From NCBI GenBank assembly GCA_022059125.1, contig JAEUWY010000012.1:2480001-2544000 (forward strand): a stretch of DNA of 64,000 nucleotides, written 5' to 3'. The notes below the pieces were generated by a model. That model saw nothing but the letters and a program-made list of their open reading frames with translations, had not been told where the DNA came from and ran no database searches. Shown here piece by piece: positions 5,682-64,000 of the stretch (its first letter is position 1; the number at the start of each line of letters is the position of its first letter). This stretch comes from Corynespora cassiicola. Lineage: Eukaryota; Ascomycota; Dothideomycetes; Pleosporales; Corynesporascaceae. A program made the translations under genes and the position numbers.

Positions 5682-8600
5682 TTACCTCTTTTTTTAATAG
5701 TGTACGACTTTGTATACTATTATACCCGTAAACAAAAAAAATAGTAATTATAAGTATTTATTTTATACTCTAGTTTTTATTTAAAAAGTATAGTTTGCAC
5801 TTTTAGATTTCTAGCAGTTTATAGTAGAATATAGCAACTCTATAGTTTAAAGATTATATTTAGTTTAAATATTCTATTTTATTACTGTTTATAATAAGAT
5901 ACAGCAACTCTAGTTATTTAATCTAATAGTTAAAACTTATTAATCTAACTTATTAGAGTTCGCTATAGTTTATAGCAGTTTCTTTTATTTACTATAGAAG
6001 TTAAAATTTAATACTTTATTTTTTAGTAGGCTACTATAGACTATAGTAGGCATAAGTATAACCAGTCTTCCTCTTTTAGAATTAAATTAAAGTTATTTTA
6101 CTTTAGTAAAAAAAGTAAAAGTAAAAAAGTAGAATATTAAGAAAAGTTGCGGTAAAGAAGTTCTGACGGAAAAAAAGTAAAAGTACTCTCTAAAAATATA
6201 TAAAAGGTTTTTTTAACACTTTCTGGCTCTTAGTTTTCTTCTCTTCTACTCTCTACTCTTAATTCGGTAAGTTTTTTAAGATTTCCTTATACTCTCTATT
6301 TTAGGGTATTATAGAGTACTGCACTCTATTATACTTTTTATTATAAAATATTATAGAGTATTACAGTTTGTAATACTCTATAATATTCTATAATATTTTA
6401 TTTTATTATATTATAGTTCTAACTAACTAGTTTAGGAACCGTATACGTGACAATCAGACTATTTTAAACCTTTCTACCTTTTAATAACTTATTTTACTCT
6501 ATTATCGTCTATTATAGACTCTACTAAAATTAGAAACGATATTTTAAATAATAGTAGATTTATTTATTACGTTTGTGTTTGTTATATTTTTTTTTTTTGT
6601 AAAAAAAAGTATTAATTTTTTAGGCAGGTTAGTTGTCTGTGTTCTATTTCTAATAAGTCTACTAAAAACTTTTATAAAAAATAGTTAGTTAAAACAGAAA
6701 AAGATAAGATATTACCGTTTAAGCGGTGTTTTAGATGCTTTATTAGTAACTAGAAGTGTTATGCGGTAAGTTTCTGTCCTTTTTATAGCTATTTTAGGCT
6801 ATTCTTAGCTATTATAGAGCTTTCTAACCTATTTTCAGGTATTTAAAGCTCTTTATAATAAATATAATACGATTTATAATTTTCTACTTAAGATCCGCTG
6901 CAGTTACTATATAGTTTAAATTACTGCAGTTTTTAATAACGCCGAAACAGTTACTTAAAAAGCTTATTATAAAAAAATCTACTTTAATACTACAAAAATA
7001 GAAATTTAGTAGTTTAGGTTAATCTGTATCTGTAAAGCGTTTTCTAAGTATTTTTTATAGTAATTTCTCTAAAATTTTTTATTTTAAGGCATTTTAGGCT
7101 ATTCTAACACTTTATAGAAAGTTTATTCTCTATAATATCTATTTAATACTATATAATAGTATAGTTTCTGCTAATAATACTCTGTAGTTTAAGATGCGCT
7201 CTAGTAGACGTAAATAAGACTCTAAAAGCGTTGCTGCTAAAATAGAGGCTAAAAAGCGTACTTTTAAGGCTTTTGTATCCGCTTAAATTAAAACTAACTA
7301 AAAAAATAGTAATACGTCTAAGAAGAAAGTAAAATAGCCTATTATGCGCTATAATAGCCTATACTAACGTCTTTTTCTAGAGTTATAGTAGTAAAACTGC
7401 TTTTAGTCTAGCTGCTACAGCTATCTAGAAAAAAAAAAAGTTAGAGATTTAAATTATTAATTTTAAGGCTGAACGTGCGCGTGCCCCGAAGAATAAAAAA
7501 AATACTTTTATAAAAAGAATTAAAAAGCTTTAGAGACAGATTAAGCCTCTTACTGCGGCCTGTGCCTAGTCGATATATAGTAGTATAAATTAATACAGGC
7601 TCTTATAGAGTATTATAGCGTAGAAAAGTCTGAGTTAGTTTTTTTTAGCTCCTTTTTTGGCGTTATAGTTTTTTCTGAAGTATATAGGTGATACCCGGGG
7701 TCTTCAGTAGCTTTCTACCTAATCTTTAAATAGTTTTTTATAATATAAGTTTTTTTACTCTAATATTTTTCTCTATATCTTATTGTAATGTTTTTTAGTT
7801 CTTTATAAGTTATTTTAGGCTATAATAGGCCAGTAACATTTCTATAAGTTTTTTTTAACCTCTTTGTATAGTCTTTAATTCTATGTTTTCTTAGAATTAT
7901 AGCGCTATTAAACACCTTTTTATGTAAAAAACCTAATATATTTCTTAGAAAAAAAATATAAAGTGAAGGTAGCTATATTTTTTATCTCTTTTTTTTCAGC
8001 TAAATCTCCGGATACTGGCTTACTTAAAAGTTGTCTGGCTTTTTTCTAGGCATTTTAATCTATTGTAGGCTATAATAAAGCTTTATAGCGTAAAGTAGTC
8101 TATTTACCCTCTTTTATTTGTCGGCTCTAGATATTTTTTTATTTTTAGAAGTTATTAATCGCGCTAGCGCTTATATTTAGTCTAGATTTCTAAAAATTTT
8201 TTTTTTAGAGTAATCTTTCTATTTTACTAAATATTTCTAAATACTAACTGAAGATTCTCTCTAATCTAGTACTTTTTTAATAAAATAGATATTATCGCCT
8301 ATTGTGCGTAATATGTCTACTAGTAGTTTACTTTAAAATTATATTGTCTCTTTTTTAATATATTTTTTTAGTAATAATATATAGAAGACTAGGTGGATGC
8401 TTTGTAGTTTAGGTAGATTTACTTTATATACATCTGGCCTAATCTGGGCTATAATAGTTCCTGGTTCTATATATTTCTAATCTAGCTTTTTTTTCGGCTT
8501 TATTAAGCGTATATACCTGTTTAATATAAGTACTTTATTCTTTATTACTAAAGAGATATACTTTCTCTTCTTGTCGGAGTATTTTTTTTAGTACTTATTT

Positions 8601-56867: not shown

Positions 56868-57070
56868 AATTTTTAAAACTTTAAAGTTTTAAAGCTTTAG
56901 AGTTTTAAAGTTTAAAATTTTAAAACTTTAGAATAGTGTTTTTTTTTCTGTTACTTTTACGATCTGCGATTTATAACTTATAATTTATATAGTTATAAAT
57001 TTATAAACTAATAAGCTAGTAAACCTATAAAATAAAAATTACTTACTTACTTATTAATAATTTAATTTTT
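56868..57070 (-). repeat. subterminal part of the unidentified repeat, inverted
   Basis: In reverse this reads AAGTAATTTTTATTTTATAG and then a stretch of TTTTAAA/TTTAAAA palindromes (56870-56938). The same order occurs directly at about 63600-63770 after the end module there. Confidence 0.6.
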
Positions 57071-57144
57071 TTTTATTATTTTTAGTTACTGTTTTATCAG
57101 ATACCTAACTAGCATTATTTCTGTTTTTTTTTATTAATTTGTAT

Positions 57145-57228
57145 TTACTGTTTAGTCCTAGCCCAGCACAGCTGAGAGAAAGAGACTCCCGTAGCTCTTT
57201 CGAAACAGAGATTTATTTCTTATATTAA
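57145..57228 (-). repeat. end module of the unidentified repeat, inverted, right isochore border
   Basis: Reversed, it reads CGAAAGAGCTACGGGAG, CTGTGCTGGGCTAG, then GACTAAACAGTAAATAC. It matches 2214-2281 and is the least mutated copy in the window (CTCTCAGCTGTG with C's kept). It ends within about 40 bp of the stop codon of the HeLo-like gene. Confidence 0.7.
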
Positions 57229-57267: not shown

Positions 57268-58219
57268 TTACCCAAGCTTTACACCAACACTTCCATTATT
57301 TGAATCTTTTCCATACGTGATCTTGTTCCTCTTAACCTCAGATTGAACTTTAAAATCTTTCTGCAACGTTTTCGCTTTCACGCCGGTATGGTTGTTCTTC
57401 CCATGATCAGTTATATCATTATGCTCTACAACAGAGTTTACCCGGTCCTGCATTTCTTCAAGCTCTCTTTTCGAAGCCTGGATAGAGTTCTCGACTTCCG
57501 TCACGGTGAATTTGCCTGTCGTTGTTTCCAAATATAACTCCAGTGTTCCGGGTATAGGTAACTGGTCTTCTGGTGTGACGTCTTCATTTTTATAGATCTC
57601 ACGGCCGTCGATACTTTCAACTTCAAGCGACCGGGCGACTCCTTGGGATTGTGTGTGGGCCATGGCTTCGATAAGTGCTAATTTCTTCTCTGTTTGGATC
57701 AGGAGGTATACTTTGTCGCGCTTCGTGATAGGCTTCTCAACTTGGATGCAACTACATCAGGGATTAGCATTGATCTTCTGAAGGGCACAGGTGGGCCGGT
57801 TACAGGCTTGTGATTTCGAGTGTCAATATTGTTGTTATTTTAGCGGTATTGATGTCGACCAGCACACTTTGTATCTCTTTCTTGTGGAACGCGAATCTTG
57901 TTCTGGCCCAGAAATTTGCTCTATGAGACGATATCAACTTTGAAAGGTGCTTTTCAAGTGCTTTACAGCTCTGTCCGCATGCAGTAACCGCTTCTGGCAA
58001 CCCGATGCTTTTGACGGTAGCGCGGATCCTGGCATCGGCTCCTTCGAGGAAATCCAGTCTCGCAAGCAAATCTTGAAGTACGCGGATCTCGGTTCTGAGT
58101 GTTTCAATTTCTTTAGGTGCTTGCTTTTGATCTCGAACCAGATTGTAGATGGATGAAATGCTGCGAAATGTCACATCAGCAATGCCAAGAATGGCCGCAG
58201 CTGCTTCAAAGCCGGACAT
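57268..58219 (-). CDS. HeLo-like domain cell-death effector with C-terminal amyloid-type motifs
   Basis: There are two exons (58219-57804 and 57751-57268). The 52-nt phase-2 intron 57803-57752 (GTAACC...GCTAAT...GTAG) has a good branch site and joins the open frames into 299 aa. Residues 1 to about 150 resemble the Helo_like_N domain (PF17111): a hydrophobic helix (FEAAAAILGIADVTF), a helix rich in Glu/Leu (EIETLRTEIRVLQDLLARLD) and a SCKALEKHLSKL helix. A charged linker with a coiled-coil-like segment (about 230-248) follows. The tail holds two motif copies at 250-263 and 281-296, the second ending three residues before the stop. Effectors of this design act at the plasma membrane after amyloid templating by a partner NLR. 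Here the partner is the divergent gene at 60121. There are no RIP stops although the repeat border is about 40 bp away. The HeLo-like call is family-level inference. Alternatively it is a standalone N-terminal STAND domain protein without amyloid function. Confidence 0.8.
57280..57327 (-). other. amyloid-type motif repeat r2 of the HeLo-like effector
   Basis: Residues 281-296 read NKITYGKDSNNGSVGV. Relative to the first N, I is at +2, G at +5 and N at +9. The copy sits at the very C-terminus, where prion-forming domains of HET-s and HELLP proteins lie. Confidence 0.6.
57379..57420 (-). other. amyloid-type motif repeat r1 of the HeLo-like effector
   Basis: Residues 250-263 read NDITDHGKNNHTGV. 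Positions N, +2 I, +5 H, +6 G and +9 N are identical to the NLR N-terminal motif NTIEQHGNHNTVAG. It lies 31 residues before r2. Confidence 0.65.
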
Positions 58220-60120
58220 GAAGAAATCTGGCAGCCCCAGCAGTTCTTATTTCAGATGTATTGCGGAGCCGCAGATGGTGCCACAGGACAGCTCTATTGG
58301 AGAATCCAGTCTGACTGCGCCTGCCTGGTGATTTCATGAAAGCTCCACATGAGGCTCACTATTCGCCAGTAAGGCTGTGATCTTCGGAGATTCCGGTCAG
58401 CGAGCGCCATGTAAGTGGTTGTGCCCGCTTGTTGCTCAATGCATATGCAGGTCGCCGGTCAACCGCAATAGGAACTAAACAATCTAGCCCAGAGGCGGGG
58501 CAACTGTCCCTCTCATCCTTCGTATTCCTGCCTCTTTTAGGAATGAATCACAATCAAACCCCACATCTGTTCCACGAGTGGCTTTTTTTCTGTGCAGCGT
58601 ATCTCTCAACATGTTTCAGACTAATTCATGCACCTCGACATGCTGCATCAGGCTGCATGGAACCTATCGCACGAGGTGACAGACCTTCATTCTGTTGTTA
58701 TTCGTGGCATTGTAATCTCTCCAAGGATTTAAGTGAGGAATACCTATTCCATTTTCCGCAATGATAAGCGATCCCCAATCAATGTGCTCAGCGTGGGGAA
58801 TCAGTGTGTAACAGAATAAAATATGTTTTGCCGGTTAGTTACCTTGCCCATTTTCAGGTTGGTATATCACTGAGACGGTTATGGGCGGATGTGTTTAGAT
58901 TCTGCCTTAGGATACTTGGTACACTTCTTGAGAACCGTTGCCCTGGCGTCATGACAACTATCACGCTGAAGTTTGGTCTCCATCCAAAGTTCTTATTAGT
59001 CAGGCAAAAATGCTGTTTTTCATTGGCAAACAAAACTGAAGGCAAATAGGCTACACTTCCAGGATCGCCTGCAAGTCGCTACTCGGCTAATCTAAGAGAG
59101 ATGGGAACGGCTAAGCCTTTCAAGGATGCAGAACCATCCAAACCCTACCGGCCGAAAGAATCCCTGTGAGCTAGGCACCGCAAGATAGCGAGAGAATAGA
59201 AAGTGGTCTAGATTTTTTCTTATCGAATTGCTCTGGACTGGTTGTTAAGCTCATCATATACTACAGCCTGCAGGCCACCAAGGCAGATAACTATTACTTT
59301 GATGTGCATAAAGATGACTTAGATTGTTTGAAGCTTACACAAATTAACAGAGGGCGTTAAAATGCATCCATGATCCATTGGTCATGAGATCATCGCATCA
59401 GGGCGTCAGCCACAAGGCTGATGGGCTAGAATCATGAGTCAGCCAGGAAACACTCTAGGGGCTCGTATTTCTTAATGTTGTGCTGAACATGGAGACTGGA
59501 TATGCCGAAACGATTTGATGAGATTGAGTTGGGGGCGGGAAGAAGTCCCTCAAGGGACAATCAAGACGCAAGTCCGCCGGGTGTCAATCAGCTTATCAGT
59601 ACCAGTCACAAGGCTAGAGTAATCATTTAGCATCGCTAGGAAAATCTATCAATCAACTTTCATGTAATATGATATCGGGAAAAAGCAACATCGGAACGGC
59701 TTTCCTTACCGACTCCGGCCGCGCCACTACTCCTGTAATGCTTCTGCTGTGCGGTTCGACCTTCCATTCCTCTAATATCGGGCGCCCAGCTTCTAGGGTT
59801 TGCCATCTGTCGCTTTATGCAGCTCACCGGTTAAGTGAACGAAAATCACGCAAACCCTTGATCGTCTACAGAGCATCGTTGCGTAATCCCACCAACTACC
59901 CGGCGTAAGCCAAGCTCTCTAATATTGCCAAGTTTATGCAAGATAATAAGACCAAAACAGACGATACCGAAGTGACCTGCAGTTTTTAGTCATAAAAGAG
60001 AATATTGAGCAGAATTAGAGTCGTGACGTGACTCGCAGCATAATATTTACGAACCCCTTTTATATCCCTTGGTTGTCGTACCGCATTCAACACCCCGAAA
60101 TACTTCTCACTTCATGCAAT
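58220..60120. promoter_or_regulatory. divergent intergenic region between effector and NLR
   Basis: These 1.9 kb of normal composition separate the two start codons and must hold both promoters. Several short open frames occur, but none has recognisable domains, consistent codon use or start context. I see no RNA gene and no repeat. A shared region would allow co-regulation of the pair. Confidence 0.55.
60058..60066 (+). promoter_or_regulatory. candidate TATA box of the NLR gene
   Basis: TTTATATCC lies 55-63 bp upstream of the NLR start codon, which would give a very short 5' UTR. Confidence 0.3.
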
Positions 60121-60128
60121 ATGAATAG
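60114..60128 (+). promoter_or_regulatory. four-codon upstream ORF overlapping the NLR start
   Basis: ATG CAA TAT GAA TAG begins 7 bp before the NLR ATG (60121) in another frame and ends just inside the coding region. If the transcript starts upstream of 60114, ribosomes meet this ATG first. That would damp translation of the receptor, plausible for a cell-death regulator. Confidence 0.45.
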
Positions 60129-63100
60129 CCCGGAAATTAGTGGGAAAATCAAGAACAACACAATTGAGCAACATGGGAATCATAACACGGTTGCTGGCGT
60201 ATATTACGGCTTGGGCGAGTCAAAATCCGATATAATTATGGTATTTGGAATTTTGACAGCTAACAGATGAAAATTCCATCCGCCGCAATGCTTTTCTAGA
60301 AGAATACAAGTGGGAGGACAAGGTTCCGAGATACGACGATGATATATTTGGAAAGGAAAGAGCCGAAGGAATTCTCCAAGATCACTACTTCAAGAAGTGC
60401 TTTGCCAAAGAAGAAGGTTTCACATTCATTTTGCAAGGAAAGCCTGGCTCTGGGAAAACTGCCACGATTAGCTACCTTTCTAGGCATGTGAGCGAGGCGA
60501 TGAACCTGCATTCGCCCATTGTGCAAGCTGAGGAGATGAGTCAGGATGACCTGAAATCAGAGATGACAGTAGCTTCAGTGTACCTCAGACTGAACGACCC
60601 ATCCCAGAGCGAACACGGAAGCATCCTAATGAGCTTTCTAGCCCAATTGTCTGATACCGTTACGGATAGTGCTGATCTTATGGACGAACTTTTCAAGAAA
60701 TTCAAGCATAGAAAACCACCTCCTGCAAAAGAAGTGTCTGAAAAGCTTGTCTCAGTGTTGAATCACATGAAACCGGCATGCCTTTTCGTCGATGCTCTAG
60801 ACGAGTGCAAGGCCGACGTAAGATATCACTTACTGACTTGCCTGGCCGAAATACAATCAAAATCCCAAGTTGGCCTGGTTCTGACCAGTAGAGCTAATCA
60901 TTATGATTGGAAGAGATATTTCAATCAGAATTACGAAATCTACCGGTTGAAGGCACACGAGAATGATATCAAGACATATCTTCGACGTGAGTTAAACAAA
61001 TGCGAGGCGAAATGGGCACAAGATCGACACTATCGTGTAAAAGTAATGGACACGATCGTGAGAGCGTCAAGTGGAGTGTAAGTCGCTTTTGCCCGAAGGT
61101 TATAAGCTGTCTAACTATCAAAGCTTCCTGCTTTCAAAGCTTCATTTCAGTTACCTAGACAAAAAAGGTGGTACAATAGCCCTTGAGGCAGATTTGAAGA
61201 CGATCGCTACCACGTCACGGGATATCTGGGATAACCAGGACAACTACGTGGACATTTTTGCTGAGGAGTATAAGCGAAACATAGAGAGAATCATAACGCA
61301 AGAAGATTTCAATGAAAGAAGAAGAGCTCAGTTGACGATTGGAGCTATCAGAGAGGCCTATCGACCATTATCAACCGAAGAGCTGCGTGGATTGCACAGA
61401 ATCCGACTTGGTAATAATCCTATAATGGAGGACCTACTTGACTGGAATATCATAGCCAGCTCATGCCATGGACTAGTGGAGGTTGATGAGCTATCCAGTG
61501 TCTCACTCATACATGCTTCACTTCTGGAGTACCTCAAGTCAAGCCAGGGTAGACAACAAATTGGAAATTACCACGAGAGTTTGGGCATCATATGTGTTGT
61601 CTATTTAACATCGGGCTCTGTTGACGGTGCAGTCTGTGCCGACAAGCCGTCGCTAAAGGCCCGTACCGATGAATGGCCATTCCTGACCTACGCTGCGAGA
61701 TACTGGTCTTATCACCTCCGGGCTTTCGAAAAGCTCTACAACGATAGTCATGTGTCGAGTGGTTCCAAGGATCTCTACCGACATATAATGAACTTCTTGA
61801 GGAATAACACGAACGTTGAGTGCGCCGTACAGATCACAATGTTTGAAGATCGCGCTTTCAAAATCTCGCCTCGACAAGCATCTGACATATCAAAGAATTC
61901 TCAACTTTCTATCCTGATTGTAAAGGAAGACTTCCAGGACCACGCAATCGACCCATTTACTCCAAATCTTACCAGTGGTCTTCATCTCGCATGCGAACTT
62001 GGATTCGAAGTATTAGTTAAGCGTCTTCTAGAAGAGAATGATGCAGTGGCGCGTGAGAAGATGCTACATTGTCCAAATTCGATTAAGCATACACCGCTAC
62101 ATCTAGCGGTATTCTCTGGCAAACTGCCTATCGTCAGGATTTTGCTAGAAGCTGGAGCGCCTTGCAATGCCTTGTGCGCCATGAACATCAACCCTTTCCA
62201 CCTAGCGATATTTTTTTCGCAAAGACACATCGCAGAAGTTATCTTAAAAAAGTCAATGAATCAAAAAGAACTGGTCAATACAGCAACGATTGGAACCAGC
62301 TGGAAAACAGAAGCATACACCGAACTCAGGGTCGGAATCTCTGAAGGAGTTCTGATCCCTGAAGAATCGAAGGTGTGGAATCAGGTCCACGGTCGTACTC
62401 CGCTTATAACTGCTGCTCGAAACGGAGATATTGAAATGCTAAAAACAATCTTGTCAATTGACGGAGTTGACAAGTATGCACGAGACTCAGCAGGTGAGCA
62501 CTGTTTGCACAGAGCTGCGAAGAAAGGCCACCTCCAGGTACTCAAGGAGCTTGTCGCAGTAGGCATGGGACCGGGCGATAAAGTAACAGGGGGAACTAGA
62601 GTCGGCTACAATGCACTTCACCTCGCGAGTCACTATGATCGCAATTTAGATGTGGTGGCATGGCTCACCAAGGAATACCCTAATCTGTGCTTCGAAATAG
62701 CGCAAGATGGCCAGACTCCGCTGCACATGGCCGCGTTCTGGGGCCTCATGAAAAATGTGCAGCAAATCCTCGCATGTCTCAATCCGCCAATAGTTCCCAC
62801 CCTTATCAACAAAATGGACAAAGAAGGGAATACCGCCCTACATCTAGCAGCTAAGAATAAAAATAGCACATGCTTAGAATTTCTTCTTCAGCAGGATGGT
62901 GTCGACATCATGGCTCGCAACAAAGACGGTTTCACACCACTGCACAATGCGGCCAGGTCTGGTTCCAGTAGCTGTGTTGAATGTTTGCTACAGAAAACAA
63001 ACCGGCTTGTGCTTCAGAAGGACTTGAACCTTCTTGTACTGGCTGCATATAGCAACGATATCAGAACATTCAAGATGCTGTGGTCACAAGATGACATTCG

Positions 63101-63194
63101 TCGGGACAAAATACCGGAAGCTTACAATTCTCTGGAAGAGAACAAAGCATCAAAAGAAATACTTGAGCTTATACAAGAGTGGATGCCGGAGTAG
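60121..63194 (+). CDS. NACHT-ankyrin NLR receptor with N-terminal amyloid-type motif
   Basis: I model three exons: 60121-60198, 60260-61077 and 61124-63194, giving 988 aa. Intron 2 (46 nt, GTAAGT...CTAAC...AAAG) is convincing: it joins SSGV to FLLSKLHF, as in this family. Intron 1 (61 nt, GTATAT...GACAG) is the only donor/acceptor pair I found that keeps frame. Exon 1 is nearly just the motif N13-T-I-E-Q-H-G-N-H-N-T-V-A-G26. The NACHT NTPase follows: Walker A GKPGSGKT at 86-93, Walker B LFVDALDEC with D204/D207/E208, and sensor LTSR at 234-237. A winged-helix-like segment (about 368-450: RPLSTEELRGL, CHGLVEVD, LIHASLLEYL) precedes about nine ankyrin repeats (about 582-960). Ankyrins should sense a ligand, NACHT oligomerises, and the N-terminal motif templates the effector at 57268-58219. 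All key residues are present and no RIP stops are seen. Exon 1 is the least certain part. Confidence 0.87.
60157..60198 (+). other. amyloid-type motif of the NLR N-terminus
   Basis: Residues 13-26 match effector repeat r1 at N, I (+2), H (+5), G (+6) and N (+9). The G-x-x-N-x-V core resembles the RHIM-like core of fungal PP motifs. The motif ends exactly at the exon 1 boundary. Confidence 0.6.
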
Positions 63195-63339: not shown

Positions 63340-64000
63340 TTCTCTAAGCTTTACTTAGCTAAAACTACATATAAAGAGGTAATATAAAAAAGTGTATAGA
63401 ATAATTATATATTTTAAACTTATAATATAAACTATAAGCAGATAGTTACTAGAAGTAAGTAGCTATTAAAAAAGCTATAGATTTTTTTTTCTTTTAGCTG
63501 TGCTGGGCTAGAACTAAATAGTAAATTTAAATTAATAAAAAAAACAGAAATAATACTAGTTAGATATTTAATAAAACAGTAACTAAAAGTTAAAAAAAAG
63601 GATTAAATAATTAAAAATTAAATAAGTAATTTTTATTTTATAAATTTAGTAGTTTACTAGTTTATAAATTTATTACTACGTAAATTATAAATTGTAAATT
63701 ATAGATTATAAAAGTAGTAGCTAAAAAAAATTACTATTTTAAAGTTTTAAAATTTTAAAATCTAAAACTAACAACTGTTAAAGCTGTGCTATAAACTATA
63801 AGTAAAACTAAAAAGCAAATAGCTGCTTAGATTAACTTTTAGAAATAAATACTTAGTAAAATTATATAAGTAAAATAATATATAATATATTATATAGATT
63901 TCTTTGTTAGTAGTAAAGTATAATAAATTAATAGTTAATTCTAAATAATAGATTTACTAATAAAGTAAATATAATTATATTAAATAATTATGTAAACTAT
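63340..64000 (+). repeat. next copy of the unidentified repeat, running off the window
   Basis: After an AT-rich transition, an end module appears at about 63470-63535 (CTTTTAGCTGTGCTGGGCTA). It is followed by the subterminal palindromic stretch (63600-63770) and the internal module from 63780. The order is the same as the inverted copy ending at 57228, so the right gene island is enclosed by two copies facing away from it. A second isochore begins here. Confidence 0.65.

Follow-up and report, generated by a model that had tools for sequence, protein, structure and literature searches.

We analyzed a 64,000-nucleotide (nt) stretch of DNA (the window; contig C12, positions 2480001-2544000, from a genome of 44.35 Mb in 23 contigs). 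A filamentous fungus is indicated by genes interrupted by introns, by stretches rich in AT, and by the large number of NACHT-type NTPases. Near the right end of the window lie two adjacent genes that are transcribed divergently. One codes for a protein with a HeLo-like N-terminal domain and two C-terminal motif repeats, R1 and R2 (the effector). The other codes for a NOD-like receptor (NLR) with a NACHT domain, ankyrin repeats, and a stretch at its N-terminus, R0, that bears a moderate likeness to those repeats. The two genes are considered here as a candidate amyloid-signaling pair.

Structure of the gene pair

The effector gene (58219-57268, minus strand) has two exons and codes for 299 amino acids (aa), and the NLR gene (60121-63194, plus strand) has three exons and codes for 979 aa with no internal stops (Table 1). 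An earlier note, made from the sequence alone, had described two intact, adjacent, and divergent genes at 57268..63194; the coordinates are right and the reading frames are whole. Nine candidate introns were scanned in the effector gene, of which one (52 nt) yields the 299-aa protein and the other eight (124-157 nt) yield 264-275 aa. Many candidate splices exist for NLR intron 1; the model given was chosen by eye, and alternative splices are possible.

Table 1. Features of the gene pair in the window and divergent pairs elsewhere in the genome
Feature	Location	Strand	Description
Effector exon 2	57268..57751	-	linker, helical stretch, C-terminal repeats, stop
Motif repeat R2	57277..57348	-	effector residues 274-297, 24 residues; ends two residues short of the C-terminus
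Motif repeat R1	57376..57441	-	effector residues 243-264, 22 residues
Effector intron	57752..57803	-	52 nt, GTAACC...TAG, phase 2
Effector exon 1	57804..58219	-	start codon and HeLo-like (PF17111) domain; residues 1-139, the last with a split codon
Intergenic region between divergent genes	58220..60120		1.9 kb between start codons
NLR exon 1	60121..60198	+	26 codons, ATG at 60121; predicted splice
Motif copy R0	60136..60198	+	NLR residues 6-26, within exon 1
NLR intron 1	60199..60259	+	61 nt, GTATAT...ACAG, best of several, picked by eye
NLR exon 2	60260..61077	+	NACHT region
NPHP3_N/NACHT NTPase core	60368..60892	+	P-loop 60437-60460, read from sequence
NLR intron 2	61078..61150	+	73 nt, GTAAGT...TTCAG
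NLR exon 3	61151..63194	+	winged-helix-like segment, ankyrin repeats, stop
Ankyrin repeat region	61960..63085	+	limits approximate, by eye
C8 pair	L046, C8:372001-382000		effector 6638-7535 (+); NLR about 5950-3669 (-), start by eye
C16 pair	L001/L052, C16:896701-906656		HeLo-like effector, divergent NB-ARC-TPR NLR; NLR end by eye
C13 pair	L054, C13:513501-517500		HeLo (PF14479) effector, 143.2 bits; divergent NB-ARC NLR, 40.4 bits
C11 pair	L003, C11:95167-98589		HeLo-like gene; divergent NLR, NPHP3_N 67.4 bits
C1 pair	L053, C1:3731801-3734800		HeLo (PF14479), 167.8 bits; divergent NLR, NPHP3_N 118.4 bits; domains 541 bp apart

Profile searches bore out the domains that the earlier note had assigned to the two proteins, a HeLo-like N-terminal domain in the effector and a NACHT-ankyrin architecture in the NLR. 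Residues 6-139 of the effector match PF17111 in Pfam with 38.5 bits (cut-off 27.2), a family that carries the Pfam name PigL_N and is termed HeLo-like in PMC9815663. With its 299 aa, the protein is also within the size of up to ~310 aa expected of effectors in amyloid-signaling pairs. Effector matches to HeLo proper (PF14479, 14.5 bits, cut-off 23.2) and to SesA (PF17107, 14.5 bits, cut-off 26.3) are below cut-off. The NLR matches NPHP3_N (72.9 bits) and NACHT (33.8 bits) above cut-off and Ank_2 in seven stretches (217 bits), and exon 3 has a weak GPIID_WHD match (19.3 bits, below the cut-off of 27). Only 62 NLR residues precede the NTPase match, and an effector domain of the NLR's own is absent.

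The HeLo-like domain has relatives in the same genome, with 16 PF17111 matches at E ≤ 0.001. An alignment of 11 sequences was built from nine of these 16 loci, the effector included, and from loci L012 and L017, both found with the effector as query. Identity of the aligned sequences to the effector is 14%-30%, with one Cys invariant and one Leu nearly so. The best-scoring effector relative in the genome is a locus on contig C8 (30%-32% identity). As read by eye, a phase-2 GT donor stands right behind the domain in the effector and in five of seven other loci (C8, C16, C11, L015 on C2, and C15); such a donor is possible in L008, and none is readable in L012. Neither the effector nor NLR residues 1-330 found a relative in protein database searches. 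A PDB sequence search with the effector gave a single meaningless match to polyubiquitin (E 0.053). The HeLo-like alignment drew 74 PDB sequences at E ≤ 1, mainly coiled coils (best 0.00035), among them the plant CC-domain proteins MLA10 (0.0067) and Sr35 (0.095); these matches are not interpreted.

Terminal motifs in the pair and its siblings

The earlier note had placed motif repeats at the extreme C-terminus of the effector, and two copies are found there, separated by a linker of nine residues. R1 and R2 align with a Smith-Waterman score of 41, a score that 2 of 2000 shuffles equaled, along the pattern V-x-S-x-V-x-x-N-x-I-T...G-K...N-N...G-V-K. By sequence comparison the repeat pair is clearly non-random. 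R0 has N, I, G, G, and V columns in common with both repeats, the last V becoming L under the modeled intron 1 splice. Against the effector C-terminus, R0 scores 36-38 (z 2.0-2.8; 50-139 of 3000 shuffles as good across four gap costs and lengths of 26 and 40 aa), and in a set of 2000 shuffles, 52 were as good. A profile made only from R1 and R2 gave R0 4.6 bits, third of 3740 peptides (R0 itself and 3739 decoys, 2567 of which were scored), with two decoys as high and 43 of 3000 shuffles as good. These comparisons suggest a moderate likeness of R0 to the effector C-terminus, above chance and at the predicted place.

Divergent pairing with an NLR was found at no fewer than six of the 24 HeLo or HeLo-like loci, the window pair included. 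The six pairs are a lower bound because the pair scan covered three manually added NLR loci and, out of 123 NPHP3_N matches, 16. At six further HeLo or HeLo-like loci, an NLR domain neighbor lies on the same strand. Besides the window, the divergent pairs have effectors of PF17111 (C8, C11, and C16) or PF14479 (C1 at 3.73 Mb and C13). The C8 effector ends in two repeats that resemble the HET-s-related amyloid motif (HRAM), and the C8 NLR (NPHP3_N, 26.5 bits) begins with a stretch similar to these repeats (matched by 23-37 of 2000 shuffles). The N-terminus of the C16 NLR (NB-ARC 42.4 bits, TPR 90.7 bits) resembles the C16 effector C-terminus, with an own-pair z of 2.5-6.8 that varies with the length used; by its sequence this pair is HELLP/PNT1-like, with a motif that is like the pseudopalindromic (PP) class by a relaxed pattern. 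In C13, a single strongly similar motif joins the effector C-terminus and the NLR N-terminus (z 10.1-10.3, 0 of 2000 shuffles as good). The C11 own-pair z is just ~1.5; the C11 NLR start codon was guessed and its frame is open further upstream. The C1 pair was left out of the motif comparison, its motif ends being unreadable.

Five pairs (window, C8, C11, C13, and C16) were compared with each other, for which 120 pairings are possible. When NLR ends of 26 residues were used, no pairing of the 120 had a higher summed z than the true one, and each own partner topped its row and column by z; NLR end lengths were not fixed beforehand, and this run followed sight of a 35-residue result. By raw score, the C11 row of the 26-residue comparison does not favor its own partner, and this row is weak because of the guessed start codon. 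Motif ends of the window and C8 pairs have no cross-similarity (z 0.8 to 1.1 and -0.2 to 0.1). Whole-genome searches with the window effector C-terminus, the C8 effector C-terminus, and the window R0 each returned the query alone, with one candidate scored per search. A PDB sequence search gave one chance match for the window effector C-terminus (E 7.5) and none for that of C8; the negative result for the window says little because the HRAM-like C8 ends also matched nothing.

Likeness of this degree could also arise if the repeats and the NLR exon were alike only in composition (N, G, T, and V), with the two proteins cooperating by ordinary contact through a coiled coil, a helical bundle, or the NACHT domain, and with no amyloid involved. 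The moderate likeness of R0 in an N/G-rich stretch, the unequal lengths of R1 and R2, and the failure of the known motif patterns tested (see below) would suit such an arrangement. Shuffles that keep composition nevertheless rank R0 in the top 1.7%-4.6%, the similarity of R1 and R2 is strong, and sibling pairs have terminal motifs in common (C13, with z ~10 and 0 of 2000 shuffles; C8; and C16). We therefore regard ordinary contact as unlikely.

Proposed mechanism, counter-evidence, and motif class

In the model systems, as described in PMC4518210, PMC4344463, PMC7885112, and PMC5485727, the NLR oligomerizes, its N-terminal motif forms an amyloid that converts the C-terminal motif of the effector, and the helical domain of the effector then enters membranes. 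The anatomy of the window pair fits this mechanism step by step. By analogy, the ankyrin repeats of the NLR would sense a ligand, and the NLR would oligomerize via its NACHT domain, clustering R0 copies. The clustered copies would adopt an amyloid fold, probably a beta-arch or beta-solenoid, and this fold would template R1 and R2. The HeLo-like helical domain of the converted effector would insert into the membrane, killing the cell. The sequence itself shows two adjacent genes with their structures and domains, the effector repeats, and a moderate likeness of R0 to them; a ligand, oligomerization, templating, pore formation, and cell death would follow the course seen in studied relatives. 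Taken together, the window pair is likely to be an amyloid-signaling cell-death pair of the HET-S/NWD2 or HELLP/PNT1 type, acting as a fungal immune or allorecognition switch. Two agreements with published systems are counted in favor: the two effector copies, single NLR copy, and linker of nine residues agree with the HRAM layout, in which the linker is 6-18 residues in 154 of 155 proteins (PMC4518210), and the identity of R0 and R1 (32%) is in line with a published average of around 30% (PMC8086366). Also in favor are the HeLo-like domain above cut-off, its best-scoring relative (C8) as another two-repeat effector beside a divergent NLR, the donor position found again in five of seven other loci, a NACHT-ankyrin NLR with just 62 residues ahead of its NTPase match, the similarity of R1 and R2, the rank of R0 against the repeat profile, and the outcome of the 26-residue pairing.

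Known systems differ in how closely they resemble the pair. HET-S/NWD2 and the HRAM family (HELLF with an NB-ARC NLR; HRAM5) have in common with it adjacent divergent genes, a helical domain of the pore-forming type, two C-terminal effector repeats, one N-terminal NLR copy, and a short linker, and NWD2 also has a NACHT domain. HET-S has a HeLo domain, whereas the window effector is HeLo-like (PF17111), as in HELLF; the HRAM family has an ungapped 21-residue pattern that the window motif does not follow; and NWD2 has WD repeats in place of ankyrin repeats, though some NWD2 homologs have ankyrin (PMC4344463). HELLP/PNT1 likewise joins a HeLo-like effector to an adjoining NLR through a terminal motif in common, but each effector has one PP copy, PNT1 is an NB-ARC-TPR protein, and the window motif is without the PP core. 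In the sigma system (SesA/SesB/HET-eN), the NLR, HET-eN, combines NACHT with ankyrin repeats (PMC3321046), as in the window, but sigma units are missing from the window motif and the effector belongs to PF17111, with SesA below cut-off. The C8 pair of the same genome has two C-terminal repeats, a divergent NLR, and the donor phase in common with the window pair, but its repeats fit HRAM, and neither of the two pieces of its NLR that were scanned matches ankyrin.

The earlier note had taken an ankyrin NLR with a HeLo-like partner that has two motif copies for a new member of such systems. Novelty on account of the ankyrin repeats is not supported: besides HET-eN and the NWD2 homologs just mentioned, T-NACHT/ankyrin is among the most frequent assortments in Sordariales (PMC12258605). 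HeLo-like effectors with repeats beside NLRs are also in print (155 double-repeat proteins, 98 with an adjacent NLR), as are several motif classes within one species (both PMC4518210). With HeLo-like and NLR pairs, ankyrin NLRs, and multiple motif classes per species all published, the window pair is a believable addition to an established type of immune switch in fungi and not a new kind.

Several observations weigh against amyloid signaling by this pair. The likeness of R0 to the effector C-terminus is not strong. With 35-residue NLR ends, the true pairing was second of 120, and the C11 effector gave the window NLR end its highest z (4.65, compared with 2.27 for the window effector); the z with C11 is 1.43 at 26 aa. 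The earlier note's claim that the first NLR exon encodes the same motif as the effector stands at moderate strength: the likeness is above chance and the own partner is best at 26 aa, but the preference is lost at 35 aa. The C-termini of the window and C8 effectors are without similarity (z 0.02). R1 has 22 residues and R2 has 24, which is awkward for strict in-register stacking. A single-sequence model of effector exon 1 has four helices at low confidence (mean predicted local distance difference test [pLDDT] 54.6), and Foldseek with this low-confidence model gave no PDB match at E ≤ 0.001; exon 2 modeled alone has a very low mean pLDDT (35.3) and repeats without a solenoid. At these values, neither the models nor the Foldseek search is a usable guide to the folds. 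No orthologs were found in the protein searches. HRAM features are at chance in both effector repeats (R1, 4/8, with 1858 of 2000 shuffles as good; R2, 5/8, with 953 of 2000).

The eight HRAM features, from a consensus in published text, were N/Q/H at position 1; a hydrophobic residue at 3, at 6 and 8 (or else T), and at 14 and 16 (or else Q); K/R at 13; and G at 17. They were scored ungapped on a 21-residue repeat in the best register for each peptide. R0 of the window is also at chance (5/8, 751 of 2000 shuffles). In the C8 control, R1 reaches 7/8 (5 of 2000 shuffles), R2 6/8 (143 of 2000), and R0 just 5/8 (978 of 2000). The test thus picks out C8 R1 and, weakly, C8 R2, but misses C8 R0, which makes it a poor one for copies in NLRs. 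An HRAM label given on the strength of the N-x-I start was dropped, the ungapped fit being at chance.

Other classes gave no better fit. The HET-s prion-forming domain (PF11558) has no match in the effector or in its last 62 residues; its one match in the genome lies elsewhere than the window pair and is below cut-off (15.4 bits, cut-off 32.2). By regular expression, the PP pattern (NxGxQxGxN / FxGx(x)NxGLQLxGxNxGxL) is absent from the window motif; the C16 effector, as control, fits the relaxed GxQxG core and misses the strict N..N pattern. The sigma units GxGxQF and GGTQN are likewise absent by regular expression, a test for which the genome gave no positive control. The PUASM pattern (FxGxGxQxxGxGxF, with a PNP_UDP effector) is absent, and the effector domain is HeLo-like instead. 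HRAM, PP, sigma, and PUASM are the classes compared; PMC9815663 presents other NLR motif classes (NLR17, 19, 20, 34, 40, and a second PNP_UDP motif) as logos. Membership in a named class, which the earlier note had raised, is thus not supported for HRAM in its ungapped form, PP, and sigma.

Judged by its sequence, the motif is unclassified, either an HRAM that has diverged or a class apart, because it fits none of the ungapped HRAM, PP, sigma, and PUASM patterns and does not match PF11558. The simplest reading of the sequences is a gapped HRAM relative, and the good alignment of R0 with the C11 effector may mean that the window motif is one. It is possible, if doubtful, that the motif forms a class of its own, N-x-I-x(2-3)-G-x(2-5)-N-x(2-4)-G, with two copies in a HeLo-like effector and one in a NACHT-ankyrin NLR, and that it serves one of several mutually insulated, parallel amyloid channels in a single genome that is rich in NLRs and has six or more divergent HeLo/NLR pairs. 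Lying outside the testable published consensus patterns, the motif could widen the HRAM definition or stand beside HRAM. If the amyloid-signaling interpretation is true, the pair is one more receptor and effector in the fungal repertoire, and several pairs with different motifs in one genome are good ground to test how many amyloid channels a cell can hold without cross-seeding.

Island and surroundings

The gene pair occupies a 6.3-kb island in AT-rich DNA. In 1-kb steps, G+C content is 0.14-0.30 across the window from 2 to 57 kb and 0.39-0.48 in the island; it is 0.42-0.46 in all five exons of the pair and drops to 0.36-0.46 (50-base steps) at the effector 3' end. AT-rich repeats flank the island, and a 283-bp inverted repeat with 84% identity encloses it (56901-57181 and 63488-63769). 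Part of this repeat was found again near 2200-2330, at the edge of a left GC-rich island. The position of the repeat at the bounds of one island and its recurrence beside the other suggest that repeat elements end where gene islands begin or end. The 1.9-kb intergenic stretch is taken as carrying the promoters of both genes, and five intergenic open reading frames (ORFs) that were tested matched nothing in Pfam at E ≤ 0.01.

This setting bears on whether the two genes are linked in function at all. The genome is rich in NLRs (123 NPHP3_N matches, in part from several exons of the same gene) and the island is enclosed by an inverted repeat in AT-rich DNA; a stray HeLo-like gene could therefore have come to lie by chance beside one of many NLRs, on a small island of genes framed by decayed repeats. 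Such unlinked neighbors would not readily account for the divergent arrangement at six or more of 24 HeLo or HeLo-like loci (pair scan above), a published layout (PMC3321046), or for an NLR that itself has no effector domain and whose R0 resembles the C-terminus of its neighbor. Chance juxtaposition is quite improbable on this evidence.

A formerly working pair that is now decaying would account for the uneven repeat lengths and the weak likeness of R0, and the AT-rich repeats around the island and the lowered G+C content at the effector 3' end point the same way. Against decay, both genes are intact, their splice sites are consistent, and G+C content is 0.42-0.46 in all five exons, which makes this explanation very improbable.

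An ORF for an Hsp104/ClpB-type disaggregase (AAA_2, ClpB_D2-small, and Clp_N; L047:4810-7587, minus strand) has its near end 5.6 kb past the NLR stop. Prion assays in Podospora made use of strains without PaHsp104 (PMC4344463); as far as a link to the pair goes, the position of this ORF is only a coincidence. The same locus has a simple repeat at about 1090-1412, with Gly-Leu codons on one strand, adjoining an AT-rich stretch. The end of contig C12 is ~10 kb past the window, and a subtelomeric location was considered and dropped: the sequence stops within an open frame, and the last 1.2 kb has no telomere repeat. Elsewhere in the genome, equal-scoring duplicated copies of NPHP3_N occur on opposite strands, for example, at C9:3555 and C9:10151 and at C8:1367521 and C8:1373569.

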